Of a DNA stretch of 64,000 nt, positions 11,853-59,267 are shown piece by piece (the first letter of the stretch is position 1; every line of letters starts with the position of its first letter). Source of the DNA: Natronoglycomyces albus (GTDB lineage Bacteria > Actinomycetota > Actinomycetes > Mycobacteriales > Micromonosporaceae); contig NZ_CP070496.1 of NCBI RefSeq assembly GCF_016925535.1, positions 1,364,001-1,428,000 of the forward strand. The letters run 5' to 3'. A program made the translations under genes and the position numbers. The notes under the pieces are model-generated. The model searched no databases, was not told the origin of the DNA, and worked only from the letters and a program-made list of their open reading frames with translations.

Positions 11853-11859
11853 AGCCGAA

Positions 11860-11865
11860 AGGCTA
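11860..11865 (-). promoter_or_regulatory. -10 box of a leaderless aldo/keto reductase transcript
   Basis: On the minus strand TAGCCT ends seven bases before the ATG at 11852, and no ribosome-binding site is present. Confidence 0.5.
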
Positions 11866-12049
11866 CCGCTTGCCGAGCGGCTAGCCAAACGGATCTGAGG
11901 TAATCCTTAGTACGAAATCCACCCTTTGCGAGGTGTGGCTAGTGAGGCCCCTGGGGCGCTTGGGCATTCGTTGCCCGGTGTTGTGGAGGAGAAGTTCCGG
12001 CGTGGCGGTGCGAGAAGAACCGCTGCGAATGCCGCATTGGGCCCACCAC

Positions 12050-37833: not shown

Positions 37834-37873
37834 CAAGCTTATCTGTTAAATATCTTTAGGATTGGAGGTTGGC

Positions 37874-43641: not shown

Positions 43642-44733
43642 TTACGCCAGGTGTGGCTCGAGTATGGAATTGACCAGATTCAGTCTTTGAGAAACACGTT
43701 CGGAGTCAACATCGAGTTGGGCGGCATTTGCGAGCGCTTCCTCAGCACTGTCTCGGTTGCCAGCTCGTGCGTACCCTTCTGCCAGCCACGTTTGGTACAG
43801 CGCGACTTCTCGGATGTGCTCTGGGGGATATTCAGCAACAGCTTTAGCGATCAAGGGGGCCGCTTTCGCTGGGTTTCCCAGTGCGATCAGGCAGCGTCCC
43901 GCCATGATGTCGATTTCAGATTGATTGAGCCAGTAGGTCCAATCAGGAGTTTCTGATTTCGTTTGCTGATGTCGCTCGTATGCGAGCTGGACCTTATCGA
44001 GTGTGCGCAAAGTGAGCGAACTGTTTTGTTGTTTAGCTGCTGCCCAGGCAACTCGTTCAAGTATAAGAGCCTCAACCAAGGGCCCCGTTTTTCCGTCTGT
44101 GCCCTGAGCTGCAGTTTGGGCTAGAAGAAGCGCTTCTGGGTCTAGAGAGATATTTGTCTTTTGGTAGGCCAAGCATGAGAACAACTGTGCGGTTAGTCCA
44201 ATGTCGCCAGCTGCACGGGCTGCATCGGCCCCCTTGAGGTATGCGTGCTCTGCCAGGGCATATTGCCCAAGGTCAGACGCGATCCATCCTGCCAATTGGT
44301 ATAGCTCAGCCGAGGGGCCAGCGGCACGACAGGCTTCGATTTCATTGAGCACTATCGGAAGCATCTGGCTACCTGCAACGGTGTCGTCAAGTCTGCGCAA
44401 GGTAATGATGCGCTGTGTAACACTGGTGGCTCCTGCTAGTTGGGGAACGTCGTCCATCAGCCAACCATGAGCGGCGCGAACCGGATCGGTCGTCGACCAC
44501 GCTGCGTTCGGGTAACTCGTGGCGTCATTGCTGTTTGAAACGACAGAGGCTAGTTGGTCAAGGCTAAGCCCTAGTTCCGAGGCCAGGTCACGTCGAGTAG
44601 TTGGATACGGCGAACTTGTTCCCGCTTCCCACCGGGCCACTGTCCTTGGGGAAACGTGAAGCGCTTCAGCTAGGGACTCTTGTGTGTGTCCTGCACGGGA
44701 TCTAGCCTCGCTTAGTTCAATTCGACGAACCAT
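43642..44733 (-). CDS. XRE-family regulator with TPR-like C-terminus
   Basis: A 363-residue protein. Residues 1-60 form a Cro/C1 helix-turn-helix (LSEARSRAGHTQESLAEALH, VSPRTVARWEAGTSSP). The rest is alpha-helical repeat (YQLAGWIASDLGQYALAEHA, YLKGADAARAAGDIGLTAQL), a layout seen in signal-responsive regulators beside streptomycete peptide or development genes. ATG 44733 has AGGATCGTGAG upstream and a TTGAAC-N16-TATAGG promoter. Likely targets are the GACATC sites, by inference. Confidence 0.85.
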   Translation of the reverse strand: MVRRIELSEARSRAGHTQESLAEALHVSPRTVARWEAGTSSPYPTTRRDLASELGLSLDQLASVVSNSNDATSYPNAAWSTTDPVRAAHGWLMDDVPQLAGATSVTQRIITLRRLDDTVAGSQMLPIVLNEIEACRAAGPSAELYQLAGWIASDLGQYALAEHAYLKGADAARAAGDIGLTAQLFSCLAYQKTNISLDPEALLLAQTAAQGTDGKTGPLVEALILERVAWAAAKQQNSSLTLRTLDKVQLAYERHQQTKSETPDWTYWLNQSEIDIMAGRCLIALGNPAKAAPLIAKAVAEYPPEHIREVALYQTWLAEGYARAGNRDSAEEALANAAQLDVDSERVSQRLNLVNSILEPHLA

Positions 44734-44926
44734 CTCACGATCCTATATCTAAGTGTTGACGCAGTTCAAGCGCCATTTAGGGTAGCTTTTCGCCACGTTT
44801 TTGGGGCGGCACAGCCGCTGTCAGAACCCGGAGACATTTCGGTCCTCCCATTACTCGCACAACGGGCCAGCCTTGGGCGGAGACTCGGCCCCGCGTTTGG
44901 GTGCGAACCAGGGGCCACATCGGGAG

Positions 44927-45091
44927 CTATTCATCCATGGTTACCAAGGTGACGAAGAGCGCCCATGAAATGAGCGCGATGCTGATCGTGGTGATGTGGA
45001 TGTCGCGCCGACAGAGCCAGTTCCAGGCACAGAGGGCCGTGATAGAAGCGATGCAACCGGCAATAAGGAGTGCTAGATAAAATGATTCCAT
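44927..45091 (-). CDS. Putative 54-residue two-helix membrane protein
   Basis: A short frame from ATG 45091 to TAG: MESFYLALLIAGCIASITAL is one hydrophobic helix, CRRDIH a basic turn, and ITTISIALISWALFVTLVT a second helix. The amphipathic pattern and codon use favour a real gene, but no ribosome-binding site is visible. It lies between the two XRE-type regulators. Function unknown. Confidence 0.4.
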   Translation of the reverse strand: MESFYLALLIAGCIASITALCAWNWLCRRDIHITTISIALISWALFVTLVTMDE

Positions 45092-45262
45092 TAGGGGTTG
45101 TTGGTGCTTTCGTGGTCTAGGGCTGGCAGAAGCATCGAGGACGACTCAGACTTGGGAACTGTCCGCCCGGCGGCTAGGTACCGTTTCTAAGCGAGGTCTC
45201 ACTTCGCAATTGTTCGTTTGAACCTGGCCACTATTTTTCCGCCGACCAAAACGCTGCGCCAG

Positions 45263-45290
45263 GACATCTACTAGACATCTTCGCCGAATA
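45263..45290 (+). promoter_or_regulatory. GACATC direct repeats, site B
   Basis: GACATC at 45263 and 45274 (period 11), preceded by CCAG, then a degenerate third unit near 45286 (GAATATC). It is 240-270 bases before the plus-strand XRE gene; nothing else is recognised in 45292-45533. Confidence 0.55.
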
Positions 45291-45533
45291 TCTAGACGTT
45301 CTACGAAATCGGCACCTTGTGCAGTGCGACAGTCAATAGGAAAGTGAAGCTACGTAGAACGTGTGACTAGCCGTTAGATGTGCTGTTGATGTTCGGTCGT
45401 TGCGCTGGCCCGTCGAGGGCACGGCCGAGAAAATTGCGTTGCAGCCCGGATAGGTGCTCACCGTTTCCATTCGACAGGATGTGCGATAGCGTGATCGAAA
45501 CACGACAACCAGTAGCTTCTCCTGGAGAGTGCC

Positions 45534-46736
45534 ATGGCAAGAGATCAGCTCCGGGTGCGTCGAGACCAGCTGTCGTTGACCCAAGAAGACTTGGCGGCCA
45601 TGATTGGGGTCGACCCGATGACGGTTCGACGTTGGGAGACCACCGAGTCCATGCCCAGGCCGTGGGCTCGGCGCGCTCTCGCCGAGATGTTGAAAGTCGA
45701 CATCGACGAGTTGATGCGGATGCTCCAGATCGAGCCAGCGGTTACCGGTCAGGACGGCACTGGGCTCGAGTCTTGTTTGTGTGGCGGAGGTGAGAGCATG
45801 AGACGTCGGTCGTTGCTCTCAGCCGTGCCAGCGCTTGCTACTGCACTGTTGCCCAGCTCGGTTAGTGCTCTTGAAGTTGAGCTATCTACTTTGTGGACCT
45901 CGTATCAGGCGTCGCGTTATCAGTCGGTTGTGGAGCGTCTGCCTGGCCTGCTGGCACAATTGCAGTCTCATAGTTCTCACGCTGGCGACCGCCGACAGTG
46001 CGAACGCCTATTGGGGTTTGCCTACCAGCTTTCCTCGACAGTTCTCACCAAGCTGGGGCACCAGGAACCGGCATTGAACGCACTTGACGAGGGGATTCGT
46101 GCCGCTGAGCGGTCTGAGAATCCACTGGTTCTCGCGTCGATCAAGCGTAGCCAGGCGCACACTCTGTTGACCTTTGGCTACGCTTCTAACGCGCTAGGTC
46201 TCGCTGAGAGCGCGATTGTCTCCTCGGCTGCGCTTTCTAGGGACGATTCACCTGATGCACTTTCGGTTGAGGGAACAGTGTGCCTGGTTGCGGCTGTTGC
46301 TGCGGCTAAGGAAGGCGACGCTAAACTCACCGGTCGATTCCTCGATCGGGCTGAGGGCATCGCGCAGAGGCTGGGCCGCGACGCTAATTGTCTGTGGACC
46401 GCGTTTGGGCCTACAAATGTGGCCATCCACCGAGTTGTGACCTCTGTAGAACTTGGGCAGCCGCGGAAGGCGATCGCGTCGGCCCCTATCGCCTCGTTGC
46501 AGTCGCTGCCTAGTGAACGCCGTGCCCGGCATGCTATTGAGCTGGCCCGGGCCCATTCGCTTGTGGGGCAGGTAGATGAGGGTGTTGCGGTACTGACCGA
46601 GGCTGAGGCGGACGCCTCGGAGCAGATCCGCAACCACCGCGTCAGTCGACAACTGGTCGAGTCGTGGCTGTCCAGTCATGGGCACAACCACAAGGTAGTG
46701 TCGCTTGCACAACGAATGCACCTTGAGTCCGCTTAG
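45534..46736 (+). CDS. XRE-family regulator with TPR-like C-terminus
   Basis: A 400-residue protein. Residues 1-60 are a Cro/C1 helix-turn-helix (QLSLTQEDLAAMIGVDPMTV, RRWETTESMPRPW). A linker with CLCGGGESMRRRSLLSAVPA precedes a helical-repeat domain that resembles TPR sensors. GGAGAG precedes the ATG. It is 24 bases upstream of a NUDIX gene, so the two form an operon. It may control the lanthipeptide locus through the GACATC sites; this is inference. Confidence 0.85.
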   Translation: MARDQLRVRRDQLSLTQEDLAAMIGVDPMTVRRWETTESMPRPWARRALAEMLKVDIDELMRMLQIEPAVTGQDGTGLESCLCGGGESMRRRSLLSAVPALATALLPSSVSALEVELSTLWTSYQASRYQSVVERLPGLLAQLQSHSSHAGDRRQCERLLGFAYQLSSTVLTKLGHQEPALNALDEGIRAAERSENPLVLASIKRSQAHTLLTFGYASNALGLAESAIVSSAALSRDDSPDALSVEGTVCLVAAVAAAKEGDAKLTGRFLDRAEGIAQRLGRDANCLWTAFGPTNVAIHRVVTSVELGQPRKAIASAPIASLQSLPSERRARHAIELARAHSLVGQVDEGVAVLTEAEADASEQIRNHRVSRQLVESWLSSHGHNHKVVSLAQRMHLESA

Positions 46737-46760
46737 CCACGCATATGGGGAGTACTAAAA

Positions 46761-47255
46761 GTGCCGGTTCAGGCAACGCATGATGAGTCCGGTCGCTTTA
46801 CTGTGGCCAGGGCTGCCGCTGGTGCTCTGATTCGAAATCGGGCCGGTGAGGTGCTCATGGTTGAACCGACCTACAAGGCTTACTGGGATCTACCGGGCGG
46901 GTATATCGAGATCGGTGAGAGCCCCAGTGTGGCGTGTCGACGTGAGGTACGCGAAGAACTGGGCATCGATGTGGCGCTCGGCGAGCTTCTGGTGGTTGAC
47001 TGGGCTCCGGCTGCAAACGAAGGCGATAAGATCCTCTTTATCTTCGATGGCGGCACTTTGACTGCGGAACAAGAGGACGCCATCACGTTGCCCGCCGCAG
47101 AGCTGAAGTCCTACGCCTATCAACCCGTCGAACGCCTTGCGGCCATCACACCAGCGCGGCTGTCCCGACGAATCGGGCACGCGATACAGGCAGGGACCAC
47201 TATGTATCTAGAAAACGGTGAACCGTTGCCGCATACGCGCTCAGACGCCGCATAG
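46761..47255 (+). CDS. NUDIX hydrolase next to the XRE regulator
   Basis: A 164-residue protein with a complete Nudix box GGYIEIGESPSVACRREVRE followed by ELGI, preceded by LMVEPTYKAYWDLP. GGGGAG lies upstream of GTG 46761. Co-transcription with the XRE/TPR gene and its own terminator suggest a regulatory or nucleotide-clearing role, not shown. Confidence 0.85.
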   Translation: MPVQATHDESGRFTVARAAAGALIRNRAGEVLMVEPTYKAYWDLPGGYIEIGESPSVACRREVREELGIDVALGELLVVDWAPAANEGDKILFIFDGGTLTAEQEDAITLPAAELKSYAYQPVERLAAITPARLSRRIGHAIQAGTTMYLENGEPLPHTRSDAA

Positions 47256-47361
47256 TCGCTGGCCCTTGATCGCTAGAGCTCGTAGTGCGCGGCCGAGTAT
47301 TCGTTGGTTTCGCGTCCTGGCTTGAAGGGGCCTCTAACAGCAAAAACACACCCTAGATGTC

Positions 47362-47392
47362 AAGGTCAGGCGTCAACGACGCCTGACCTTTT
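47362..47392 (+). terminator. Intrinsic terminator of the XRE-NUDIX operon
   Basis: AAGGTCAGGCGTC (47362-47374) pairs perfectly with 47378-47390 around AAC, followed by TTTT. Confidence 0.85.
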
Positions 47393-47602
47393 CCCGTGTG
47401 CGGACACGGTGGCTGCGTATCCGGGTTTGTCTAGTTAATCTCTTGGGCTTTCAGCGAAGTTGCCTCGTTGGCTTGGATACTACGGCCGAATGTGGTCGGT
47501 GAGGTTTTCTGCCCGGCCGAGTGTTGGAGGATTGCTCACTATTGAAGACGGTGATGATCGGCGTAGGTGTGAGCTCGGTGAGTCATTGATGTGTCGTCTG
47601 TA

Positions 47603-47634
47603 GATGTCCGGCAAATGTCTGGTGGATGTCCTGG
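47603..47634 (-). promoter_or_regulatory. GACATC direct repeats, site C (reverse orientation)
   Basis: Plus-strand GATGTC at 47603, AATGTC at 47614 and GATGTC at 47625 (period 11), the last followed by CTGG. On the minus strand this reads CCAGGACATC and two further units, as in sites A and B. It lies 140-175 bases upstream of the lanthipeptide methyltransferase start, in a 380-bp gap with no gene. Confidence 0.6.
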
Positions 47635-47777
47635 TTTTCGCCTGAGGCGGGGAGCAACATATGTGCACGGGCCCGGTGGCCCCGAATGTATGCCGTGCCA
47701 AGCCCATGTGTGTAGGGGTGTCGATTGGCGCGGCAGAGGAAACGATCGCTGGCGCTCACGCGCTTCGGGAGGCTGAC

Positions 47778-49004
47778 ATGACCGAGACCGAATCGACCGC
47801 TGTGGAACTAAGGGAGGCCTTGGCTGAAGCGGTTGTGAAAAATCGCTCCGCCATAGGCACCTCGGTGTCTGATCGGATCTTGGAGGCAGTGCGCACTGTT
47901 CCTCGGCATTTGTTTGTTCCGGGGGCGAGTTTGGAAGAGGCCTACGATAACTCGGCCTCGCCGATTATGAAACGCGATGAGAATGGCACTCCGTTGAGTT
48001 CGGTCTCAGCTCCGTGGTTGCAAGCGGCGATGCTCGAACAGGCTCAGATTGAGCCGGGCATGAGGGTGCTGGAGATTGGCTCTGGTGGGTATAACGCGGC
48101 GCTCATTTCGGAACTCGTAGGCAAGAAGGGGCGCGTCGTCACGCTCGATATCGACCCTGAGGCGTGTGAACGCGCCACCCAGGGACTGGACGCGGCCGGT
48201 TATGACGAGGTGGTGGTCGTATGCGCTGACGGTGAGTACGGGGCGGCCGAGTACGGGCCGTTTGACCGCATCATCGTCACCGTCAGCGCACCGGATATAC
48301 CTCCGGCATGGACTGAGCAGCTGGCCGCAAATGGCAGGTTGGTTGTTCCGTTGCGTCTGCGAGGGCTGGCCCGCAGTTTCGTGTTTGTGCCCGATGGAAA
48401 CACGTTGAGATGCACCGAGTTCGAGCTGTGTGGCTTTGTTCCTATCCAGGGAGCGGCTGAGGCTCGTCAGCGACTGGTCTCCCTCGACGCAGAGCATGTG
48501 GCGCTACGGGTTGATGATCATCAACCGGTCGAAGCGGTCTGCCTGCGACGCGCGTTGGAGAGTGACCGGGTCGATCAGTGGTCGGGTGTCACTGTCGGCG
48601 GCATGGTCGCCTGGGATGACCTGGACATGTATCTGGCCACAAGGCTCCACAGCTACGGGTACCTCACCGCCTCCGATGAGGGAATCGCCTCGGGCCGCGT
48701 CAATTTGGCGTTGCGGTGGGGCATGTCGGCTACCTGGGACCGTGACTCCCTGGCATATCTGGCGATGCGCCCCATCGATGAGGAGCGCACCCAGTTCGAG
48801 TTCGGCGCTCACGGACACGGTCCACGCGGCGCCGTTTTGGCCCAGCGGCTGGTCCATCACGTGCGCAGCTGGGACCGCGGATTCCGGCACCATCGGCCTC
48901 ACTTCGAGGTCCACCCCAAAGACACGCTGGATGGCGATTTGCCGCCAGGTTTGGTGGTGGAAAAGCCTCACAGCCGCGTCACTGTCTCCTGGCCGCAGTC
49001 CTAG
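47778..49004 (+). CDS. FxLD-system methyltransferase (PIMT homologue)
   Basis: A 408-residue protein. The N-terminal half resembles protein-L-isoaspartate O-methyltransferase: VPRHLFVP, SSVSAPWLQAAMLEQAQIEP and the SAM motif VLEIGSGGYNAALIS near residue 97. The C-terminal 180 residues are the extension seen in FxLD-type lanthipeptide clusters. Such enzymes methylate Asp in the modified peptide, which can lead to succinimide or isoaspartate; the site here would be one of the Asp beside the Cys-rich core. GGGAGGCTGAC precedes ATG 47778; ATG 47661 with GGGGAG is an alternative start. Confidence 0.88.
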   Translation: MTETESTAVELREALAEAVVKNRSAIGTSVSDRILEAVRTVPRHLFVPGASLEEAYDNSASPIMKRDENGTPLSSVSAPWLQAAMLEQAQIEPGMRVLEIGSGGYNAALISELVGKKGRVVTLDIDPEACERATQGLDAAGYDEVVVVCADGEYGAAEYGPFDRIIVTVSAPDIPPAWTEQLAANGRLVVPLRLRGLARSFVFVPDGNTLRCTEFELCGFVPIQGAAEARQRLVSLDAEHVALRVDDHQPVEAVCLRRALESDRVDQWSGVTVGGMVAWDDLDMYLATRLHSYGYLTASDEGIASGRVNLALRWGMSATWDRDSLAYLAMRPIDEERTQFEFGAHGHGPRGAVLAQRLVHHVRSWDRGFRHHRPHFEVHPKDTLDGDLPPGLVVEKPHSRVTVSWPQS

Positions 49005-49056
49005 GCTGCGCCGCTGCAATGAACTAACCCATTAACTGGCCTCTGTAAGGAGTGAC

Positions 49057-49209
49057 ATGAATTCCGATACGACTACCGCAATTGATAACGACGAGTTCGA
49101 GCTTGACATCACGCTCATCGAGTCCGGCCCTGACCTGGGCGCGATCTTGTACGACACCAGCGACAACTGTGGGCACACCTGCCAGTCGGCCTGCGTCTCC
49201 TGCATGTAA
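49057..49209 (+). CDS. FxLD-family lanthipeptide precursor
   Basis: A 50-residue peptide too short for routine calling. The acidic leader contains the FxLD motif as DEFELDITLIESG (residues 13-25). The C-terminal part DTSDNCGHTCQSACVSCM has four Cys and two Thr plus three Ser, so up to four lanthionine or methyllanthionine rings can form. AAGGAG precedes the ATG by six bases. It lies 52 bases after the methyltransferase and 69 bases before the LanB gene. Confidence 0.92.
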   Translation: MNSDTTTAIDNDEFELDITLIESGPDLGAILYDTSDNCGHTCQSACVSCM

Positions 49210-49278
49210 TTCCCACGTGCTGGCACCGGGCTCCCGGCGGTGCCAGCACGTTCACCCCACCCCCTGAGAGAGGCCAGA

Positions 49279-52200
49279 ATGTTCCACGCTGTTGAGACGG
49301 CCCTGATCCGCATTTCAGCCTTTGCTCCCATGAGTCGTTCCCAACCACCCGTGGCGTTGCGGCGAACTGACGCCAATGCGGCGGCCTCTCAGCGAGACTG
49401 GATTGCCTCAATTTGGGCGTGTCAGGACTTCTCCGCAGCCATCGAGATTGCCTCTCCTGCCCTGACCACTCGCATCAACGCGATCCTGACGGGGACAGTC
49501 AGTGATTCACGTCAGGTTCGTCGCGCAGCGCTTGCGCTGTTGCGGTATGCCCTGCGCGCTAGCACGCGGGCGACCCCGTTCGGGCTCTTCGCCGGTGTGG
49601 CACCACTGGGGTTCACCGATGAGGCTGTCGCTCGGATGGGGGCTGCTCACCAGGTGATGGCTCGTGTTGAGGCGGTGCAGCTCGAGCAGTTGATATGGGA
49701 GTGTGAGCGGGAACTTTTCCCCAGGTTTCGGGTGGTGGCGAACAATCTGGCTAGGGTTCAGGCGGGCCGGTTGTCACTGCTGTCGATTGCTCGGACATCA
49801 GACTGTGAACCGCGTGAGGTCACATTGCGCCACACCGCAGCGGTGGAGGCGGTACGGCAGTTGGCACAAACACCGGTGAGCTGCGAAGAGCTCATAGCCG
49901 CTCTCGCACGGAGGTTTCCCTGGGCCGCTGGAGCAAAGATCACGGCGTTGGTGAGGACATTGATGGATCAAGGTGTCCTCCTCTCACAGTTGCGCGCACC
50001 GATGAGCCAGCCGGACCCACTACGACACCTGCTCGACGCGCTTCCCGACCAGGCCAAGGGAGAGCCAGCGGCATTTGCCACAGCACGCCAAATGCGCAGT
50101 CACCTCGATGCGGTCTCTGAGGCAAGACAGGTCAGCACCTGTCGAACTGCGTTGCGCTCAGCGGCCGAGCATGTCAGGACCCGCCAGAGCAATCCGCTGG
50201 CGGTGGATATGCGCCTCGACGCACGAGTGGGCATCCCGGCATCGGTAGTAAACGAAGCTGAGAAGGCCGCTGTGGCACTGTTGCGGCTGAGCCGTTTCCC
50301 GAACGGATCGCCTTCGTGGGCTGACTACCGCGACGTGTTCTTGGAACGGTATGGCATAGGCGCGATAGTGCCGCTGGGCGAACTGTTGGACCCGGTGGCG
50401 GGTGTGGGGTTTCCCGCTGGTTTTCGCGACTCGCTGTATGCGCGGAGCTCCCCGAGCTTGACTGACCGCGACCGGTCCCTTATCGCTTTGGCGCACCGGA
50501 CTGTCTGCGAGGGGCAGTTGGACGTTGACCTCAATACCGATGATCTGGCCGGGCTAGCTGCGGAGGACGTTGTACCGGCGCCCCATGTGGGCTTGGCCTT
50601 CCACGTGCGCGCTCGCAGCCGCGAGGACATGAACGCCGGCCGCTACGTGTTGGGCGTCGATGGCGCTGCCCGCAGCGTCGGCACAACCGAGGGGCGCTTT
50701 TTGCACCTTTTGGACCCCGCCGAGCGAGAGCGCATCGCGACAACATGGAACGAGCTGCCCACGATGATCGAGGGGGCACAGCGAGTGCAACTGTCCGGCC
50801 CGCCGCTGTATGCGTCGACGTGCAACGTCGCCCGCGTCCCGCGTATGCTGCCCGACCACATCAGCCTAAGTGAGTGGCCTACCGGCGAGGAACCTGCGCG
50901 TTTGGAAGACTTGGCCGTCAGCGCCGAGATCGACCGGATGTTTCTGGTAAACCGTCTCAACGGTCGCGTGGTGGAACCGCTGCTACCCAACGCAGTCGAA
51001 CCCACAACACGAATGCACCCCACCCAGCGTTTCCTCGCCGAGCTGCCCCGCGCCCACACCTCGACATACGCCACGTTTGACTGGGGAGCCGCCGCCGCAC
51101 TACCGGTCCTACCACGCCTGCGCCTAGGTCGCAGCATCCTTAGTCCTGCCCGCTGGCGCATCGAGCCTGCCCAACTTCCTGGCCACCGAAGTTCCTGGAG
51201 CGAATGGATACAGCACTGGGACGAGATACGTAAACGTCTCCAGCTTCCCGACCAGGTCTACCTAGGAAACAGTGACATCCGGGTGCGCATCGACCTCAAC
51301 GATGAGGCCCACCTAGTCCTGCTGCGCACCGAAATCGACCGCAAGGGAACGGCCGTACTGCGGGAGGCTCCAACGGAGGCCGACCTCGGGTGGATCAACG
51401 GACGCGCTCACGAAATCACCATCCCACTAGCCACAGACACCTCCCCGAAGCCCCCGCCGCGAGGCACCACCGAGGCTCCGAGGCTCTCACGGTCTACCGA
51501 AGAACATATCCCCGGCGCAAGCTCGTGGCTGTACGCCAAGATCTACACCCACCCCTCCCGCTTCAACGAACTACTCACCACTGACACCGACAAGCTGTTT
51601 TCCTCCTGGCCAACTTCGCCGAGCTGGTGGTTCCTGCGCTACCTTGACCCTCGCCCACACTTGCGTCTACGTATCCGGCTAGACGAATCGACCTCCTACG
51701 GACAGGCTGTTGAGCGCCTGGGGACGTGGGCGGCAGCGATGAGAACACGTGGCCTAATCCGTGACCTGACGTTGGACACCTACCGTCCCGAGACCGGCAG
51801 GTACGGATACGGCGAAGTCATGTCGGCAGCCGAGGACGTGTTCGCCACCGACACTACTGTCGCCCTCACCCAGATCCGTCACGCTCAAGTAACCGGAACC
51901 TCCCATGAAGCACTATGTGCCGCCAGCCTCATCGAAATGGCCGAGGTCTTCACCGCCTCAGGAGAGGACGGCACCACCTGGCTGCTTGACCACGTCAACC
52001 GCTCCGGTGCGCCACTGAATCGTGTCCACGCTGCCGAACTGGACAACCTCAGAAACGACGGCGTTCCCGGCGATGGCCCGTTGGACGAGTCCGAATCCGG
52101 CCAAGCGGTAATGGCGGCGTGGCAGCGGCGAAGAGGAGCCCTCACCGCCTACCGCCGCGCATTGCTAGAGACCCACCAAGCTCCCAGCAATGCGGTCTTG

Positions 52201-52329
52201 TCCTCATTGCTGCACTTGCACCACATCCGCGCCATCGGCATCGACACCGACAGCGAACGCGCATGCCTACGGCTCGCCCGCAACGCCGCGCTATCCAGCC
52301 GGGCCCGTCACCACAGGAGCCACGCATGA
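49279..52329 (+). CDS. Class I lanthipeptide dehydratase LanB
   Basis: A 1016-residue full-length LanB. The N-terminal glutamylation domain has the conserved RASTRATPFGLFAGVA near residue 95 and LSRFPNGSPSWADYRDVFLE. The C-terminal elimination (SpaB_C) domain starts near residue 747 with SSWLYAKIYTHPSRFNELL and has WWFLRYLDPRPHLRLRIRLD. It dehydrates Ser/Thr of the precursor using glutamyl-tRNA. ATG 49279 has GAGAGAGG; the stop overlaps lanC by ATGA. Confidence 0.95.
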   Translation: MFHAVETALIRISAFAPMSRSQPPVALRRTDANAAASQRDWIASIWACQDFSAAIEIASPALTTRINAILTGTVSDSRQVRRAALALLRYALRASTRATPFGLFAGVAPLGFTDEAVARMGAAHQVMARVEAVQLEQLIWECERELFPRFRVVANNLARVQAGRLSLLSIARTSDCEPREVTLRHTAAVEAVRQLAQTPVSCEELIAALARRFPWAAGAKITALVRTLMDQGVLLSQLRAPMSQPDPLRHLLDALPDQAKGEPAAFATARQMRSHLDAVSEARQVSTCRTALRSAAEHVRTRQSNPLAVDMRLDARVGIPASVVNEAEKAAVALLRLSRFPNGSPSWADYRDVFLERYGIGAIVPLGELLDPVAGVGFPAGFRDSLYARSSPSLTDRDRSLIALAHRTVCEGQLDVDLNTDDLAGLAAEDVVPAPHVGLAFHVRARSREDMNAGRYVLGVDGAARSVGTTEGRFLHLLDPAERERIATTWNELPTMIEGAQRVQLSGPPLYASTCNVARVPRMLPDHISLSEWPTGEEPARLEDLAVSAEIDRMFLVNRLNGRVVEPLLPNAVEPTTRMHPTQRFLAELPRAHTSTYATFDWGAAAALPVLPRLRLGRSILSPARWRIEPAQLPGHRSSWSEWIQHWDEIRKRLQLPDQVYLGNSDIRVRIDLNDEAHLVLLRTEIDRKGTAVLREAPTEADLGWINGRAHEITIPLATDTSPKPPPRGTTEAPRLSRSTEEHIPGASSWLYAKIYTHPSRFNELLTTDTDKLFSSWPTSPSWWFLRYLDPRPHLRLRIRLDESTSYGQAVERLGTWAAAMRTRGLIRDLTLDTYRPETGRYGYGEVMSAAEDVFATDTTVALTQIRHAQVTGTSHEALCAASLIEMAEVFTASGEDGTTWLLDHVNRSGAPLNRVHAAELDNLRNDGVPGDGPLDESESGQAVMAAWQRRRGALTAYRRALLETHQAPSNAVLSSLLHLHHIRAIGIDTDSERACLRLARNAALSSRARHHRSHA

Positions 52330-53567
52330 ACACCATGACTGTCACTCCCGAAGCCACCATGACCGCAACCGAGCGCGCCCAGCACATCGCCGAGGCGTTG
52401 GCCGACCCCGAAACGGTCAACCTTCGCCACGAGGCAACCCATGAATCGTTGGGTGCGGGAAAATTGGGTGTCGCATTGCTACACCTGGAACGCGCCCGCC
52501 GTGAACAAGGTGACTCAGCAAGAGCCCACGCATGGTTGCGCACCAGCATCCACCCGGCGATCAACTCCTCAGCAGCGTCCAACCTTTTCAACGGCACACC
52601 AGCGCTGGCGTTCTCTCTGCACACCACCGGGGCACACGCACTCTATAAGAGTCAATGGACAAAGCTGCACCAGCGAGCCAAAGAGATCACTGCCGAGCGC
52701 TTGAACCTAGCCCAGCAACGCATGAAAGCGAACCGTCCCGGATCGTTTGTGGAGTTCGGGCAGCTCTCTGGCCTCACCGGGCTGGGAACTTATCTACTAC
52801 ACACCGAGCCCACGGCCAAGCTCACCGGTGAAGTGCTGTCCTATCTTGTCGACCTAACCAGGCCCTTGAAACTGGACGGGGTGACAGTTCCAGGATGGTG
52901 GGCCAACCACGACCCCTATCTGGGACAGTCCGATGCCTTTCCCACAGGCCACGCCAACCTCGGATGTGCCCACGGTATCGGTGGCGTCCTGGCCCTGCTC
53001 GCCATCGCCATGCGAACTGGGATCACCGTTCCGGGCCACCGCGACGCTGTTGAACTGATCTGTGCGGTTTATGACGCCTGGCAACACGAAAACGGATGGT
53101 GGCCCCAATGGATCACCCTCACCGACGTCAAAGACGGCCATATCTCTCAACCGGGTCCCGGCCGTTCAAGCTGGTGTTACGGCGCCCCCGGCATCGCCCG
53201 GTCTCTACAGATGGCCGCCATCGCGCTACGCGATCCGATCCGCCAACGCCGCGCTGAAGACGCGTTGCTGCGCTGCTTGGCCGATGAGGACCAACGCAAC
53301 ACGTTGACCGATTCTGGCCTCTGCCACGGTTTGGCTGGGCTATACCGCATCGCGCAACGCGCCGCTGAAGACGCACAAGATACCCAGCTGGTCGAAGCTC
53401 TCCCGGGCATCCTCCACCGCCTCCTGACCGCAGACTCCGTCGAGTCTGGATTCCTCGACGGAGATGCCGGAGTCGCGCTAGTCCTCCACGAGGCAGGGAC
53501 TCCGATCGATGAGGGGTCAACGTGGGATTCGGCTCTGCTCTTGGCTGCGCCACGGGGGCCGCAATGA
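52326..53567 (+). CDS. Lanthionine synthetase cyclase LanC
   Basis: A 413-residue cyclase-like protein with the double-barrel GxxG pattern (LGAGKLGVALLHL, LSGLTGLGTYLL, GCAHGIGGVLALLA) and the zinc ligands in SSWCYGAPGIA (Cys near residue 284) and GLCHGLAGLYRI (Cys-His near 332). It catalyses addition of Cys thiols to dehydro residues. It starts within the LanB stop (ATGA) and its stop overlaps the next start, so translation is coupled. Confidence 0.95.
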   Translation: MNTMTVTPEATMTATERAQHIAEALADPETVNLRHEATHESLGAGKLGVALLHLERARREQGDSARAHAWLRTSIHPAINSSAASNLFNGTPALAFSLHTTGAHALYKSQWTKLHQRAKEITAERLNLAQQRMKANRPGSFVEFGQLSGLTGLGTYLLHTEPTAKLTGEVLSYLVDLTRPLKLDGVTVPGWWANHDPYLGQSDAFPTGHANLGCAHGIGGVLALLAIAMRTGITVPGHRDAVELICAVYDAWQHENGWWPQWITLTDVKDGHISQPGPGRSSWCYGAPGIARSLQMAAIALRDPIRQRRAEDALLRCLADEDQRNTLTDSGLCHGLAGLYRIAQRAAEDAQDTQLVEALPGILHRLLTADSVESGFLDGDAGVALVLHEAGTPIDEGSTWDSALLLAAPRGPQ

Positions 53568-54445
53568 TGGACACGAGTCATTCTGCGGGCCCATGGCTGC
53601 AAACCGTCGTGTGTTGGAACGACCCGCGCCACGCCGAACGTGTATGGGCCAACCTTCTCGGACCTCGCATGAACCACGAGGTAGAGAAGGGCACGCTCAC
53701 AGGGTGGTTCCTCATTCGGAAGTCACCGTCTTGGCTAATCCGGTACGCGCCCGCTGAACCAATACCGCCAGAAGTGGCCCGTAGCGCTGTTGGCGACATC
53801 TTCGCCCGAGCCGCGATCGCCGATCATGTCAGTGACGTGACCGAGTGCATCTATGAACCTGAAACGGTCGCCTTTGGAGGCGATGCGGCTATGGAGACGG
53901 TTCACCGCCTATTCGCTGAGGACACCCATCACTTCACCCGGTACCTCGCACTCCTGACTGCACCTGGGGCTGTCGACCGACGACGTGAGCTGTCCTTGCT
54001 GCTAAACACGGCCCTTATGCGAGCGGCTCAACAAGAATGGTTCGAGTGCGGCGACATCTGGGCCCTCGTGGCGGCTATGCGCGGCAGCAACAATCATCTA
54101 CCCGATGTCGCCGATGCAACCGCACTGACAGTGCGTCAGTTCATCACCGCCGACCCCAACACAGCGTTGAGTCGACTCAACGAGTCCGAAGCAGACCTCG
54201 TGGACAGTTGGCTTGCCTCCTACCGGTTGGCCGGAGCCCGTCTGCGAGAGCTAGGCAGCAAGGGCGCACTCCTGCGCGGTCTACGAGCGGTACTGGCCCA
54301 CATCGTCCTTTTCTCGTGGAACCGGATCGGCCTGCGCCTGACCGACCAGCGGCGCCTAGCCGCTGCGGCACGAGACGCCGTCTTCAGCCTCCATGCCGCG
54401 AGCCTTACGCTGCCACACGTGCCCCAGCAGCGGAGCAGCCAATGA
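53564..54445 (+). CDS. SpaB-C-like lanthipeptide/thiopeptide biosynthesis protein
   Basis: A 293-residue protein resembling the free-standing SpaB_C (thiopeptide-type bacteriocin biosynthesis) domain: GPWLQTVVCWNDPRHAERVW and WFLIRKSPSWLIRY at the N-terminus, then AVGDIFARAAIADHVSDVTE and VYEPE-like ECIYEPETVAFGG. Because LanB here already has an elimination domain, this second copy may be a partner or act on another residue. The start ATG 53564 overlaps the lanC stop. Confidence 0.85.
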   Translation: MMDTSHSAGPWLQTVVCWNDPRHAERVWANLLGPRMNHEVEKGTLTGWFLIRKSPSWLIRYAPAEPIPPEVARSAVGDIFARAAIADHVSDVTECIYEPETVAFGGDAAMETVHRLFAEDTHHFTRYLALLTAPGAVDRRRELSLLLNTALMRAAQQEWFECGDIWALVAAMRGSNNHLPDVADATALTVRQFITADPNTALSRLNESEADLVDSWLASYRLAGARLRELGSKGALLRGLRAVLAHIVLFSWNRIGLRLTDQRRLAAAARDAVFSLHAASLTLPHVPQQRSSQ

Positions 54446-55581
54446 AGTCCCTGGCACTGTGGTTTCCCCTCACCCCGAGGGCACGCCCGATCTGTGCACC
54501 ATTGGCCACCCGCATTGAAGATGTAGCTACCCGTGCCCGAAACGTGAGGACCACCACCGACGCCTCAGCTGCGCTTAACCTCGCCGCGCTCATCGCCAGC
54601 GACATCGGAGTCTCAGACCTCGCTCGAAGAATGTGCTGGCAACAGTTTGATGCCTTTGCCAGCACAGCGCCGCTGAACGAAGAAACCACCCACCTGGCTA
54701 TGGAGCCAGTCATCAATCTGGCTCGCCTAGCCATCCGCGACGGCAACGGAGACGAGGCGTACCGCATCCTCCACCAGGCCCTAAAAGCCGTATCCGAATC
54801 CACCGCCTGCATCATCGACTCGGTGGCTATCGACTTCGCTACGTTCTTCACCAACACACAAAGCCGTATGGCGGCCCGGCAGCGGCTATGGATCGCGCTA
54901 CTGTCCGATGGCACTCGAGCCCTCACTCGCGCCGGAAGATGGACAGAAGCCCTACACGCCGTCGAACAACACAACGGGGTGGGCCGCCGCCTGCTGGACG
55001 GACGTCAAACGGCCATCATCGGCCACTACACCGCGGGCAATACCGCCGCAGCCCGAGCCATGATTGCCAGCGCCCAGGCCCTCACACCCTGGGAAAGAGC
55101 CCTCGCCAGCTTCCTCGATGCCTGCTGCGCGGATGCTGAGGGCACAGCGAACCCCGCAGCTATCGATTCCCTCACCGACCAATACCAAAGCATTGAACTT
55201 CCCGACAATCAGTCGCTATTCAACATCCGGCTCGGACTGAGCATCCTCGAACTGGCCACCGACCACGGCGATACCAAAGCCCTCACTGACCGATTGCGCC
55301 AGCAAGGCCTCGACACCGACGATGCTTACGCTGCACGCGACCTCACTGCCAGCGCACATTTCCGGGCCTCAGTACCCCAAGCCGTCCTCACTCAGCTGGA
55401 GGAACTTGTTGCCCGAGCCGGCCTCAACTCCACGCCTAGAGAACAGGCCCTACGCTCGCTGAAGGTCGCCTTTGACGCTGCACTCGTCCAGTTGCTACGA
55501 AACCAGTCGCTTCCATCGAAAACCGATTGCCACGCAGTGGAATCGGATGGAAGACGAAAACCAGCTCGGGAAAACAACTGA
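54442..55581 (+). CDS. Helical-repeat protein, last gene of the lanthipeptide operon
   Basis: A 379-residue Ala-rich helical protein with TPR-like pairs (LNLAALIASDIGVSDLARRM, ARLAIRDGNGDEAYRILHQA, EQHNGVGRRLLDGRQTAIIG). No catalytic motif, signal or membrane segment is seen. The ATG overlaps the previous stop (ATGA). Similar proteins close FxLD loci; a scaffold or regulatory role is possible but unproven. Confidence 0.8.
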   Translation: MKSLALWFPLTPRARPICAPLATRIEDVATRARNVRTTTDASAALNLAALIASDIGVSDLARRMCWQQFDAFASTAPLNEETTHLAMEPVINLARLAIRDGNGDEAYRILHQALKAVSESTACIIDSVAIDFATFFTNTQSRMAARQRLWIALLSDGTRALTRAGRWTEALHAVEQHNGVGRRLLDGRQTAIIGHYTAGNTAAARAMIASAQALTPWERALASFLDACCADAEGTANPAAIDSLTDQYQSIELPDNQSLFNIRLGLSILELATDHGDTKALTDRLRQQGLDTDDAYAARDLTASAHFRASVPQAVLTQLEELVARAGLNSTPREQALRSLKVAFDAALVQLLRNQSLPSKTDCHAVESDGRRKPARENN

Positions 55582-55824
55582 AACTAGCCCTCCGGATGCC
55601 TGGTGTAGCCTCCATCTTTTCTACCAGCGATTTCGTCTTGCTTCACAATGGAACCGTACCCCGAACCGTGCCCAACAACGCTCAGTTAGACCAAAACAAC
55701 TCATAGATCGATGGTTGCCACACCCCTAACATCAATTGCGTTATTGCTCGTAAGTTTCATTGACGATTGCTGAAGCCCCCCAAGAAAAGCAATGAAATTA
55801 TTTCAGGTACGCTACGGTCACACA
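55582..55824. other. Gene-free gap after the lanthipeptide operon
   Basis: No gene seen. Base composition turns less GC-rich from here, in line with a junction between acquired segments. Confidence 0.4.
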
Positions 55825-55858
55825 AAGTGGCCTTGGCGCTGCTACGCCAAGGCCACTT
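55825..55858 (+). terminator. 14-bp perfect hairpin between the lanthipeptide operon and the secreted-protein gene
   Basis: AAGTGGCCTTGGCG (55825-55838) pairs with 55845-55858 around a 6-base loop. No T-run follows. It is 244 bases after the operon and 29 before the next ATG, so a leader hairpin is also possible. Confidence 0.5.
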
Positions 55859-55889
55859 GAAACAACCAAACAGTGCATCTGGAGAATGA

Positions 55890-56555
55890 ATGATTGGTCG
55901 TAAGAAATTCTACCCTGCTGTAGCTGGCGCCGTATTGCTGGTCGCAGCCGCTCTGTTCTCACCCGTCGCGGCAAGCGCGGAAACATCAGTACAGTCAGAA
56001 GTTGAGAAGCCCGAAACGAGTTTCCTCGGTGGCTTCGAGGAACACGAGGAGGGCGAACTCAAGGTCGAGTGGCCGGACGGTTCATCATCTACCATCACGG
56101 CCTCTGAGCCAGAACCGGTTTCAGAATCCGACATTAATGAGTACGGTGAACTCAAGTCCCAAGAGGGAGTCAAGCTAGCCGATGCTACGGCCTCGAATAT
56201 TCAAAGCCGTAGTTGGACCCAGCAGCACACCGATACATTCGGCTTCTTCGCAGTTCGCCACGTTGGAACGTTCTTCTTCGATGGCAATGGACAGGTTTGG
56301 TCAACTACTACTCAGAACGGCAGGACCGGATCTCACTCATGCTCAACGAGGTGGACGATCCCGGGTGTCGGTCTCGAACACGACAGCTGCAACACTGTCC
56401 CGCGCAGTGATCTATCGACTCCGGCCATTTCAGAGTACTTTTACTTTACAGTTTCAACTGCCGGGTTTAGTTTTGGCGGAAACTACATTCATGTCAATCT
56501 GTATACATCGGGAACTATTCTCTATTACGAAACCGTAGGAAATCAATGGGGGTAG
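55890..56555 (+). CDS. Secreted protein of unknown function
   Basis: A 221-residue protein with a clear signal peptide (MIGRKKFYPAVAGAVLLVAA, cleavage after about ASA at residue 31), an acidic Pro/Glu-rich propeptide-like stretch to residue 105, and a beta-rich C-terminal domain with two Cys (GSHSCSTRWTIPGVGLEHDS, then CNTVPRS) and many aromatic residues. It could be a secreted effector or immunity factor; nothing identifies it. TGGAGA precedes the ATG. Confidence 0.65.
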   Translation: MIGRKKFYPAVAGAVLLVAAALFSPVAASAETSVQSEVEKPETSFLGGFEEHEEGELKVEWPDGSSSTITASEPEPVSESDINEYGELKSQEGVKLADATASNIQSRSWTQQHTDTFGFFAVRHVGTFFFDGNGQVWSTTTQNGRTGSHSCSTRWTIPGVGLEHDSCNTVPRSDLSTPAISEYFYFTVSTAGFSFGGNYIHVNLYTSGTILYYETVGNQWG

Positions 56556-56629
56556 GTGCTAAACATGCCACTCCAATTGAAGGTGCTTAGATAAGAAAAT
56601 ACTAGCTGCATCCTCATGAGCTAGATCAA

Positions 56630-56731
56630 CTGGGGCTTATTCTAAAGGAATTTCCGGGATTTCTGTTATTTCGCTTTCTCGCGCATAATTCATCTGCAGT
56701 CTTCAAAACTGCACTTTAGAATAAGCCCCAG
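56630..56731. repeat. 18-bp inverted repeat framing 66 bp
   Basis: CTGGGGCTTATTCTAAAG (56630-56647) has its exact complement at 56714-56731. Outside it, CCAATTGAAGGTGCTTAG (about 56573-56590) recurs as CCAGTTGAAGGTGCGCAG (about 56776-56793). The arrangement is MITE-like or a remnant of an insertion, in a gap with no gene. Confidence 0.55.
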
Positions 56732-56870
56732 AGTGATCTGCCTTCTCGCGACTTTTAAATATACTTTAGAGTGATTCCAGTTGAAGGTGCGCAGAATTTT
56801 TCGAATCTGATCAAATCGAAGATCTGAAAATGTAATGTTTGAAGGTAAGAAGTATACGGTGGGAGCGTCT

Positions 56871-57137
56871 ATGGGGAATACCGAACAAAAACCATCTCAC
56901 ACTGAAATAGCAAATGATGGAAGACTGTCTACTCTGATTTTTGGTGTGGCAATAGTCCTCGGGGTCGGTTTCGTTGCCCCTTTTTGGGGGGGCGTCGTCT
57001 GCATTTTCCTAGTTATGCATGTATTCAATCAAACGCATAAGACTAAATGGATTTTCCTGGCTGGCGGGATCATGCTGAACGCGTTGCATTTGGTAGGGAT
57101 GACCATTACCAATTCTGGATCAATGTGGTTCGTATAG
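56871..57137 (+). CDS. Small membrane protein of unknown function
   Basis: An 88-residue protein starting MGNTEQKPSHTEIANDGRLS with two membrane helices (about residues 20-52 and 58-85). GGGAG precedes ATG 56871; ATG 56835 would add 12 residues. The gene is AT-richer than the backbone. No family recognised. Confidence 0.55.
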   Translation: MGNTEQKPSHTEIANDGRLSTLIFGVAIVLGVGFVAPFWGGVVCIFLVMHVFNQTHKTKWIFLAGGIMLNALHLVGMTITNSGSMWFV

Positions 57138-57390
57138 AGGGTATTCAGGTTCTCGCTTCCTCTCCATTGAGCGGCGATTCGCGATAGTTCCAATGGAAGC
57201 CCTGTATGCGAATATCAAGGTCAAAGGCAAACTAAGAACCGAAGCCCGCAGAAGATCTTGTGGCCATTTTTCGTAATCCGTGCAACTCAAGAAAAACTCC
57301 TACTGCAGTGACCGACTTGTCATTGCTGCTGTCGGTCACTGGGAATCGTGTCCTACAGGCGGGATACTCCTTGGGTTCGAGGAGGTCAGG

Positions 57391-57483
57391 ATGAACACGC
57401 TTATCCATAGCCGCGCCAATTGCTGCATAGGCCTGTCGGTTATTCTGCGCCCGTATTGCGTCTGGGGCCTAAATCGCGGATAA
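57391..57483 (+). CDS. Possible 30-residue peptide gene
   Basis: MNTLIHSRANCCIGLSVILR and ten more residues follow a very good GAGGAGGTCAGG site. The size makes it uncertain; a 11-bp hairpin (CAGTGACCGAC at 57306 with 57331-57341) lies upstream. It could be a small peptide or a leader. Confidence 0.3.
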   Translation: MNTLIHSRANCCIGLSVILRPYCVWGLNRG

Positions 57484-57524
57484 CTGCTCTGATCCAAAAT
57501 TGGTTCTTCCGAAAGGTTGATTCA

Positions 57525-57830
57525 ATGGGAGGAACTGTCCTCAATTCCAATATCGTTGAGGGCGCAGGAAACGTTCTAGCAGTGATGCTCATAACCCTAA
57601 ATCAACAATTCTATCGCGTGGAGCTTCCTCCATTTAGAGTGGCCGATTACGTTGACCCCGTGAAAGACCTGGGGGCAAGGACCATAGGTCGTCCGATGTG
57701 GTATGCCTGAAGCATGCCCCACAGTTATTCAAGTTGGACATCAACTCTCAAGAGCTCACCTGGGAGCAGATGAGGGAGCTAAAAAACTTCAATGCTCGCA
57801 CCATGAAAAAGCGTCCAGATCTTGCAATGT
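57525..57830 (+). pseudogene. Possible decayed gene with a frameshift
   Basis: One frame (57525-57710) encodes 61 residues starting MGGTVLNSNIVEGAGNVLAV. A second frame overlapping its end reads LKHAPQLFKLDINSQELTWE and QMRELKNFNARTMKKRPDL to a TAG near 57830, which looks protein-like but lacks a start. One frameshift would join them. No family recognised. Confidence 0.3.
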
Positions 57831-57853
57831 AGGGACACACATTTCTTGTTGGT

Positions 57854-57881
57854 GTTGGCCGGTGCGAGTGCACCGGCCAAC
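57854..57881 (-). terminator. Terminator of the ParB-family gene
   Basis: GTTGGCCGGTGC (57854-57865) pairs perfectly with 57870-57881 around GAGT, seven bases after the parB stop. Confidence 0.7.
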
Positions 57882-57887
57882 GGTTGT

Positions 57888-59267
57888 TTACGCAGTTGCT
57901 AGTTCAGGGGCCCTCTCTGACTGGTCGTCGGCTTCGTAGGTGTCGTCTGACGTGGTGTCGGTGGTGAGTTCGTCGTGTAGTTGGGTTTCGATGTGGCTGA
58001 GTTCGTAGCCGTTGGTGGTGCAGTGGGTGAGGTAGGCCAGGGCCGTTTCGGTGTCTCCCCAGCCGTCCTGGGCCACGTTATAGAGGTTGGCTTCTTGTTC
58101 GGCTAGCCAGCGGGCTGCGGTAGCTCGAGTGAGACGGTCCATGCCGACTGATTCGGGTAGCTCCTCTAGCGGGCTGCCCGCGATGCGGGTTGCGAAGTCG
58201 GCTAGCCCGCCATAAGTGGTTGGCAGGGGAAGTGAGGCGGTGACCAGTGTGCGTAGTGCGGTGCGGAAGAGGGTTTTTGCTCCTTTGGCGGTGCCGTAGC
58301 GTCCGGTGAGGAAGTCTTGGCGGACGGCCGTGGCGCGTTCCCAGGCTTCGCGGTGGGCTTCGGCCTGGGCTTGTGGGTTTTCCTGGTCGATGTGGTTGGC
58401 GTCGGTTTCGTTGATCGTCTGGGTTCGGGTTCGTGGCTGTAGGCCCGCGGCGCGGGGGTCAACGCAGTAGTAGCGTGCTTGTGGTTGGCTGCCGATGGTT
58501 TCGATGTAGGCGGCGACTCCTGGTAGGTGTTTGGCTGTTTCGATGGTGGCTTCGTTGCCGTCCGAGTCGAGGAGCATGTGCAGGTAGGCCGCTTTACCGT
58601 CGGTGTTGGTGGGTTTGGGTGTGACGCGGATGTCGTCGAGGATGAGTTGTGCGCGTAGGCGTTCGGTGGCGTCTTTGGTCTCTTGGCGTGCGCGTTCGTC
58701 GGCGATGGCGTGTTGGAAGCCCCAGTGCCCCTGCCCTTTCTTCATGACGCGGGCCAGTGCCTTCGGGTCGTGAGTGAAGCTGGCTAGTTCGGCTGCGGTG
58801 GCGAGGTCCAGTTGGCCTTCGTCGGTTGCTTTCTGAATCTCGGCGGGTAGACGGTGAAGGGTCAGTGCGTCCGAAACCCGGCGAGTTTTACGTCCTGTTG
58901 CTTTGGCAATGCGTTCGGGCTCCCAGTTCAGCAGCCTTAGCTGCTCGTATGTTGCGGCTTCCTCGCTTGCGGTGAGTTCGTCACGGTGTAGGTTTTCGGC
59001 GAGCATGGTGACGTACTGGTCGGCGTCTGTGGTGGGAAGGACGATGCAGGGCACGGTTTCCAGCTCGACTTGCACAGCAGCTGCTTGGCGGCGGTGCCCG
59101 GCGATGATGGTGTGTTGTTGGTCCTCGTCGGCGGGAAGCACAACTAGGGGTTCAATGATGCCGCTGTAGGTCACTGACTCGGCGAGCTGGTCGATGTTGC
59201 GCAGTTCGCGGTGTGCGTTGTGTGGGTGGGCTTGGAGTTGGCCGGGTGGGATCTGGGTGATTTCCAT
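57888..59267 (-). CDS. ParB/RepB/Spo0J-family protein
   Basis: A 459-residue protein. The N-terminal ParB/Srx CTPase-like fold has LAESVTYSGIIEPLVVLP, TIIAGHRRQAAAVQVE (the GxRR box) and AENLHRDELTASEEAATYEQ. A helix-turn-helix follows (RIAKATGRKTRRVSDALTLH). The C-terminal half is long and unlike chromosomal ParB. No parA is adjacent, which is common in integrative elements and prophages. ATG 59267 has GGAG; an ATG four codons earlier is possible. It lies downstream of a nested palindrome. Confidence 0.88.
   Translation of the reverse strand: MEITQIPPGQLQAHPHNAHRELRNIDQLAESVTYSGIIEPLVVLPADEDQQHTIIAGHRRQAAAVQVELETVPCIVLPTTDADQYVTMLAENLHRDELTASEEAATYEQLRLLNWEPERIAKATGRKTRRVSDALTLHRLPAEIQKATDEGQLDLATAAELASFTHDPKALARVMKKGQGHWGFQHAIADERARQETKDATERLRAQLILDDIRVTPKPTNTDGKAAYLHMLLDSDGNEATIETAKHLPGVAAYIETIGSQPQARYYCVDPRAAGLQPRTRTQTINETDANHIDQENPQAQAEAHREAWERATAVRQDFLTGRYGTAKGAKTLFRTALRTLVTASLPLPTTYGGLADFATRIAGSPLEELPESVGMDRLTRATAARWLAEQEANLYNVAQDGWGDTETALAYLTHCTTNGYELSHIETQLHDELTTDTTSDDTYEADDQSERAPELATA

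Follow-up and report, generated by a model that had tools for sequence, protein, structure and literature searches.

The stretch analysed here (the window) covers 64,000 nucleotides of the genome of Natronoglycomyces albus (4.01 Mb in three contigs), namely positions 1,364,001 to 1,428,000 of contig NZ_CP070496.1. Positions 47778–55581 of the window carry an intact six-gene cluster of the FxLD-type class I lanthipeptides, with all genes on the plus strand and all frames open (Table 1). Protein identities were assigned from NCBIfam and Pfam profile matches. The six genes follow one another as the original prediction, made from the letters and their open frames, had described them, and the ATGA overlaps that it had noted for most junctions occur at three of the five (LanB/LanC, LanC/SpaB_C and SpaB_C/TPR). 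The methyltransferase and precursor genes are separated by 52 bases and the precursor and LanB genes by 69 bases.

Table 1. Genes and RNA feature of the lanthipeptide cluster, in window positions.
Feature	Position	Strand	Assigned from
LanSA-type (FxLD) aspartyl O-methyltransferase, 408 amino acids; PIMT domain and C-terminal extension of about 180 residues	47778-49004	+	TIGR04364, PCMT
FxLD lanthipeptide precursor, 50 amino acids	49057-49209	+	TIGR04363
RNA hairpin, 14-bp stem	49215-49251	+	Folding compared with shuffles
Full-length LanB dehydratase with glutamylation and elimination domains, 1016 amino acids	49279-52329	+	PF04738, PF14028
LanC cyclase, 413 amino acids	52326-53567	+	LANC_like (PF05147)
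Standalone SpaB_C-like protein, LanB-elimination fold with altered active-site residues, 293 amino acids	53564-54445	+	TIGR03891, PF14028, fold comparison
Helical TPR-like protein, 379 amino acids	54442-55581	+	TPR matches below cut-off, AlphaFold model

Precursor and methyltransferase

The original prediction had proposed a search with the FxLD models as a check, and in that search both the precursor (TIGR04363, 56.6 bits with a cut-off of 30, E 1.8e-15) and the methyltransferase (TIGR04364, 479.3 bits with a cut-off of 320, E 9.6e-144) scored above the curated cut-offs. Its remark that the precursor is easily missed was thus overstated, as a curated model finds it. The precursor, MNSDTTTAIDNDEFELDITLIESGPDLGAILYDTSDNCGHTCQSACVSCM, has the FELD leader motif and the four Cys that had been reported for it; its core has T34-S35-D36-N37-C38, followed by C42, C46 and C49. 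This core contains the conserved Asp motif TxD[G/N]C in the form TSDNC, and by this motif Asp36 is likely the modified residue. With four Cys, and five Ser/Thr from residue 34 on, four rings would be the upper limit. Comparison of the precursor with Protein Data Bank sequences gave no relevant match.

The pattern [ST]xD[GN]C was found in 35 of 36 distinct precursors compared, with Gly after the Asp in 25 and Asn in 10 (L numbers denote loci and G numbers genomes below). The sole miss is the third precursor of the genome of L005 (AASDGGC). The count left out L007 (below cut-off, with an internal stop), L063 (below cut-off, truncated), L008 and L009 (genome and precursors the same as L005), L048 (a copy of L014) and the second precursor of L010 (DSSGGC), with which it becomes 35 of 37.

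In the methyltransferase, the PCMT domain spans residues 17–225 and is followed by the C-terminal extension that belongs to LanSA enzymes. Its S-adenosylmethionine-binding loop, EIGSGGYN as in most relatives in which the methyltransferase gene comes first, is one residue shorter than in the Thermotoga PIMT. Methyltransferases encoded first in their cluster mostly have a GSGG loop, and those encoded downstream or in a fusion mostly GxGTG; TIGR04364 thus covers two methyltransferase subtypes. Three loci (L094, L096 and L129) carry two or more FxLD methyltransferases, one of the upstream type with the GSGG loop and one of the downstream or fused type.

The same genome encodes another TIGR04364 protein above cut-off (417 bits; L044:7206-8432, model match C1:3660250-3661425), preceded by a DUF6119 protein and followed by a 426-amino-acid protein whose EspC-like similarity falls just short of the cut-off. 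A second lanthipeptide cluster at this site was considered and rejected, as neither LanB nor LanC nor a short frame resembling a precursor was found in the 18 kb around it. Since this protein passes the model without these neighbours, a TIGR04364 match is by itself no proof of an FxLD system.

Dehydratase and cyclase

LanB matched PF04738 (583 bits) and PF14028 (157 bits) above cut-off, with E 1.1e-174 for Lant_dehydr_N, and both of its domains are present. It keeps the equivalents of NisB Y80, R83, R87 and T89, as read from the alignment, and of R784, R786, E823, R826 and H961 in the profile alignment. In NisB, the changes H961A and Y80F abolish dehydration (PMC4341554). LanC matched LANC_like with 127 bits (E 8.6e-37), and its WCYG and CHG motifs align with those of NisC and 8byk; we take the Cys of WCYG and the Cys and His of CHG to be the zinc ligands.

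Relatives and gene order

The nearest named relatives of the methyltransferase are three Glycomyces records (69–70% identity), and over the cluster the identity to Glycomyces genes is 45–70%. Of 22 loci found through the methyltransferase, 11 have the order methyltransferase-precursor-LanB-LanC-SpaB_C (L010-L017, L020, L021 and L023), four of them also with the TPR gene (L010-L012 and L023); in L016 this order is kept with broken LanB frames. In L025, LanB and LanC are followed by a fusion of SpaB_C with the methyltransferase and by TPR, and tblastn detected no precursor. L024 holds the methyltransferase, a precursor and a LanB fragment, and L018, L019, L022 and L026 the methyltransferase or part of it only. 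The remaining five (L027-L031) match over the PIMT domain only, four from records named Pelomonas or Burkholderiales and one from Burkholderiaceae.

Among 150 genomes sampled from the same order, the methyltransferase was above cut-off in 22 and the precursor in 14, all within those 22. SpaB_C was found (E ≤1e-15) in 12 genomes, with strong matches (>200 bits) in 10, all of them among the 14 precursor-positive genomes; in G399 it lies away from the precursors. As scoring covered a capped number of first-look candidates per genome (16 for SpaB_C, 13 for the TPR-like protein, up to 46 for the precursor), absence from this sample is not proof of absence. We also added 41 further stretches and classified their genes with profiles drawn from at most nine loci. 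Altogether, 34 distinct loci have LanB and LanC, and 26 of these have SpaB_C; L024 was not counted as a cluster, and L110 and L120 come from one genome.

Standalone SpaB_C protein

The SpaB_C protein matched TIGR03891 with 133.5 bits and PF14028 with 61 bits (Lant_dehydr_C, E 2.2e-16). A phmmer search of solved structures with the single sequence found no relative (best E 0.24), whereas a profile search did. Its AlphaFold model (predicted local distance difference test score, pLDDT, of 86) was placed by VIA-align in the LanB elimination fold, with Z scores of 20.0 to MadB, 19.4 to NisB and 18.9 to MibB, then 17.1 to PbtD, 16.6 to TbtD and 16.3 to TsrL, and no more than 9.6 in the next rows. 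We rejected a PEARL-type protein, as only Lant_dehydr_C was found there by Pfam.

Two positions of the elimination fold were followed through 27 distinct SpaB_C copies, a set that excludes L098 (a copy of L014) and the short L016 fragment. NisB R826, which we take to be the classical catalytic Arg of the eliminase, corresponds to Ala in 25 of the 27 copies, to Thr in L128 and to Val in L129. The position of H961 is occupied by Ile or Leu in all 27, although this match comes from sequence profiles within a helix and may be off by a few residues; the window copy has Ala and Leu at the two sites. None of the copies thus has Arg or His there in the sequence-profile alignment, and two weaker SpaB_C-like proteins outside the count (L074 and L077, 81–82 bits, YEPEAHLFGG) also lack the Arg. 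Seven other residues (Y97, E100, F104, H114, E161, N253 and R254) are invariant in all 27 copies. The window protein has Ile at 247 and Ser at 251, where relatives commonly have His.

The elimination domain of LanB itself keeps R826 and H961 in 31 of the 32 distinct clusters that have it, the exception being L020. In L025 (5834-7975) and L128 (near 11700-12200) LanB ends at the linker just before this domain, so that the SpaB_C, fused to the methyltransferase downstream of the shortened LanB, is the only elimination domain found in these two clusters. The L128 cluster may be decayed, because its LanB also carries a frame change. In L020, L102, L104 and L127, all SpaB_C-positive, LanB has lost R784/R786/E823. 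Loss or decay of LanB was thus seen in 6 of 26 SpaB_C-positive and 0 of 8 SpaB_C-negative clusters, a difference short of significance (Fisher one-sided 0.17). A LanC tree of 33 rows places the four decayed cases together with the five-row group of the window in one 9-row set (support 95/96), so the decayed cases represent few independent events; the deletions in L025 and L128 are compatible with one or two.

SpaB_C and the methyltransferase share one open frame in seven of the 26 SpaB_C-positive clusters (L025, L093, L094, L107 and L128-L130). In G399 the SpaB_C gene lies beside a TPR-like gene (L090:8044-9935), and no methyltransferase, LanB or precursor was found in that 18 kb stretch.

Hairpin, TPR-like protein and flanking genes

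The hairpin between the precursor stop and the LanB start folds at −31 kcal/mol (z −2.6; of 200 dinucleotide shuffles, 1 folded as well) and lacks a T run after it. Uninterrupted stems of this kind, matched by no more than 5 of 300 mononucleotide shuffles, occur in 14 of 17 loci (for L010 in the first 60 bases of the gap); in the other three, L002, L006 and L016, the whole-gap folds are stable with interrupted stems. The hairpin is probably an attenuator or stabiliser that sets the ratio of precursor to enzymes. Rfam gave no match over 44000-58000. Within 46700-56000 no sigma-70-like promoter was found (shuffles average 1.7), and terminator-like sites were no more frequent than in shuffles.

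The sixth gene had been predicted to encode a helical-repeat protein. The helical part stands, as the AlphaFold model (mean pLDDT 88) consists of nearly all helices; for the repeats there are weak TPR matches below the Pfam and NCBIfam cut-offs. A structure search gave no convincing neighbour among the 50 matches listed (template modelling score to the query ≤0.39, no row at E ≤0.001), the matches being TPR or designed helical repeats. The gene is present in 17 of the 26 SpaB_C-positive clusters and in 10 genomes of the order sample, eight of which have SpaB_C; in the other two, G428 and G468, no other cluster gene was found in the 16 kb stretches around it.

Upstream of the cluster, the NUDIX and XRE genes at 45534-47255 were rejected as cluster members, as no orthologue occurs in the flanks of the relatives (clustering at E 1e-8); other XRE or XRE/TPR regulators lie upstream of the cluster in some relatives. 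The window has XRE-type regulators at 45534-46736 and 43642-44733, one resembling the NsdA family just below cut-off, and two neighbouring chitinase-like genes (GH18 with CBM5/12) at 36167-37630 and 37862-39253. Just after the cluster, 55890-56555 encodes a 221-amino-acid protein with a signal-like N terminus, which matched nothing in Pfam or NCBIfam at E 0.01 and had no counterpart in the flanks of the relatives.

Discussion

Clusters of this kind are among the largest class I lanthipeptide groups in print (PMC7268733), and the locus thus adds a member to a known, partly characterised actinobacterial type. The locus resembles families I 1 to I 4 of Walker et al. 2020 (PMC7268733), whose class I precursors, from actinobacteria, share a conserved Asp and come with a PF01135 methyltransferase. 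Among characterised systems, OlvA/OlvSA of Streptomyces olivaceus, of the LanSA class ('lanthimiditide'), comes closest, judged by its published description. OlvSA works on the conserved core Asp (PMC13001092, PMC7268733, PMC10787088); it acts after LanB and LanC and methylates the Asp side chain, the ester then giving a succinimide, and hydrolysis of the OlvA succinimide yields, as the end state in vitro, 70–80% isoAsp and 20–30% Asp (PMC13001092). This chemistry of the nearest characterised LanSA enzyme (PMC13001092, PMC11285071) supports the Asp-modifying role that had been predicted for the PIMT-like partner. In contrast to OlvA/OlvSA, the Asp is here followed by Asn, and the cluster includes the standalone SpaB_C and TPR-like proteins. 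The methyltransferase also resembles the PAMTs of graspetides, lasso peptides and pamtides in having an additional C-terminal domain beside the PIMT domain, but the WXXXGXP motif reported for PAMTs (PMC13001092) was not found in it.

We consider the locus, with a probability of about 0.9, to be a LanSA/FxLD class I lanthipeptide cluster in which Asp36 would be methylated and then rearranged, with the SpaB_C and TPR-like proteins assisting. The genes, model matches, conserved residues, synteny and fold used for this reading were observed directly. In the pathway that we infer, LanB would bind the FELD leader, glutamylate Ser/Thr of the core with Glu-tRNA and eliminate the glutamate, after which LanC would add the Cys thiols and close as many as four (methyl)lanthionine rings, of which the first would most likely link T34 to C38 and enclose S35-D36-N37. 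The methyltransferase would act on the cyclised peptide and methylate the side chain of Asp36, and the backbone NH of Asn37 would attack the ester to give a succinimide and then mainly isoaspartate; by analogy with OlvA, the ring aspartate is probably rearranged in the product. The SpaB_C and TPR-like proteins may assist in this, the hairpin probably raises precursor output above enzyme output, and the leader would be removed and the peptide exported by proteins encoded elsewhere.

Several observations weigh against this reading. There is some circularity in the motif count, as TIGR04363, through which many precursors were found, itself contains the motif; those of L010-L024 were reached through the methyltransferase and not through that model. 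The residue after Asp36 is Asn and not Gly, although the same holds for 10 of the 36 precursors, and Asn at this position should slow succinimide closure relative to Gly. The second precursor of Glycomyces luteolus (L010:11534-11686) has Gly in place of the target Asp and keeps the leader and four Cys. A precursor match was absent in 8 of the 22 methyltransferase-positive genomes of the order sample, and a Pfam scan of 27 window proteins, which represent part of the frames of the window, found no leader protease or peptide transporter. In the literature, TxDGC is the usual lanthipeptide motif for these methyltransferases (PMC10787088), and Thr, Asn or Asp follows the Asp in some of their substrates (PMC13001092). 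The missing transporter and protease, like the lack of a sigma-70-like promoter, would also fit a decayed or silent remnant, but the six open frames with operon overlaps, the retained catalytic residues and the 45–70% identical Glycomyces genes make this highly improbable.

The role of the SpaB_C protein is less clear. A full LanB together with an extra elimination-domain protein, often fused to a methyltransferase, has been reported before, along with the suggestion that such proteins may serve a purpose other than elimination (PMC7268733); the replaced R826/H961 equivalents agree with that suggestion. A literature search, mostly without full texts, found no function assigned to the standalone elimination-domain protein. 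There is in our view an even chance that SpaB_C represents a functionally new type of LanB-elimination fold, in which the classical catalytic Arg and His are lost and other residues are invariant, and which would either eliminate glutamate through a different active site or join the often-fused methyltransferase in acting on the aspartyl ester or succinimide. It is possible, if somewhat doubtful, that SpaB_C is an additional glutamate eliminase of an unorthodox kind, which either shares the elimination step with LanB or carries it out in its place. The Z scores of 19–20 to eliminase domains, the fused SpaB_C that persists in L025 and L128 where LanB has no elimination domain, and the loss of LanB residues in four clusters that all have SpaB_C point in this direction. 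However, the catalytic equivalents are replaced in every copy, L025 and L128 included, the association with LanB loss is not significant and goes back to few events in the LanC tree, and L128 may itself be decayed.

A repurposed fold that serves the Asp methyltransferase, by holding the ringed peptide or handling the ester or succinimide, would explain the fusions in seven clusters, the seven unchanged positions beside the lost eliminase residues and the precursor in all 10 genomes with a strong SpaB_C match. We regard this as rather unlikely, since eight clusters have LanB, LanC and methyltransferase without SpaB_C, OlvSA is active in vitro without such a partner (PMC13001092), and the SpaB_C-TPR pair of G399 stands apart from the precursors of that genome with no adjoining methyltransferase. 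Improbable, too, is that SpaB_C catalyses another modification, like the pyridine synthases of thiopeptides, which share its fold. The Z scores of 16–17 to PbtD, TbtD and TsrL fit this; in this comparison of folds, SpaB_C is 14–17% identical to them over the aligned residues. The possibility of another modification as such has been raised in print (PMC7268733). However, a [4+2] cycloaddition needs two dehydroalanines, and with four Cys and five Ser/Thr few would be free if all Cys form rings.

In 2020 the mature product of the one characterised case was not known (PMC7268733), and in 2026 linking such peptides to a function was described as the bigger challenge (PMC13001092). The cluster adds N. 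albus, a relative of Glycomyces, to the producers of a widespread peptide type. The comparison offers natural variants, namely LanB without the elimination domain (L025 and L128), SpaB_C-free clusters and the Asp-to-Gly precursor of Glycomyces luteolus, which serves as a natural control, and it makes the question of PMC7268733, the role of the extra elimination-domain protein, directly testable.

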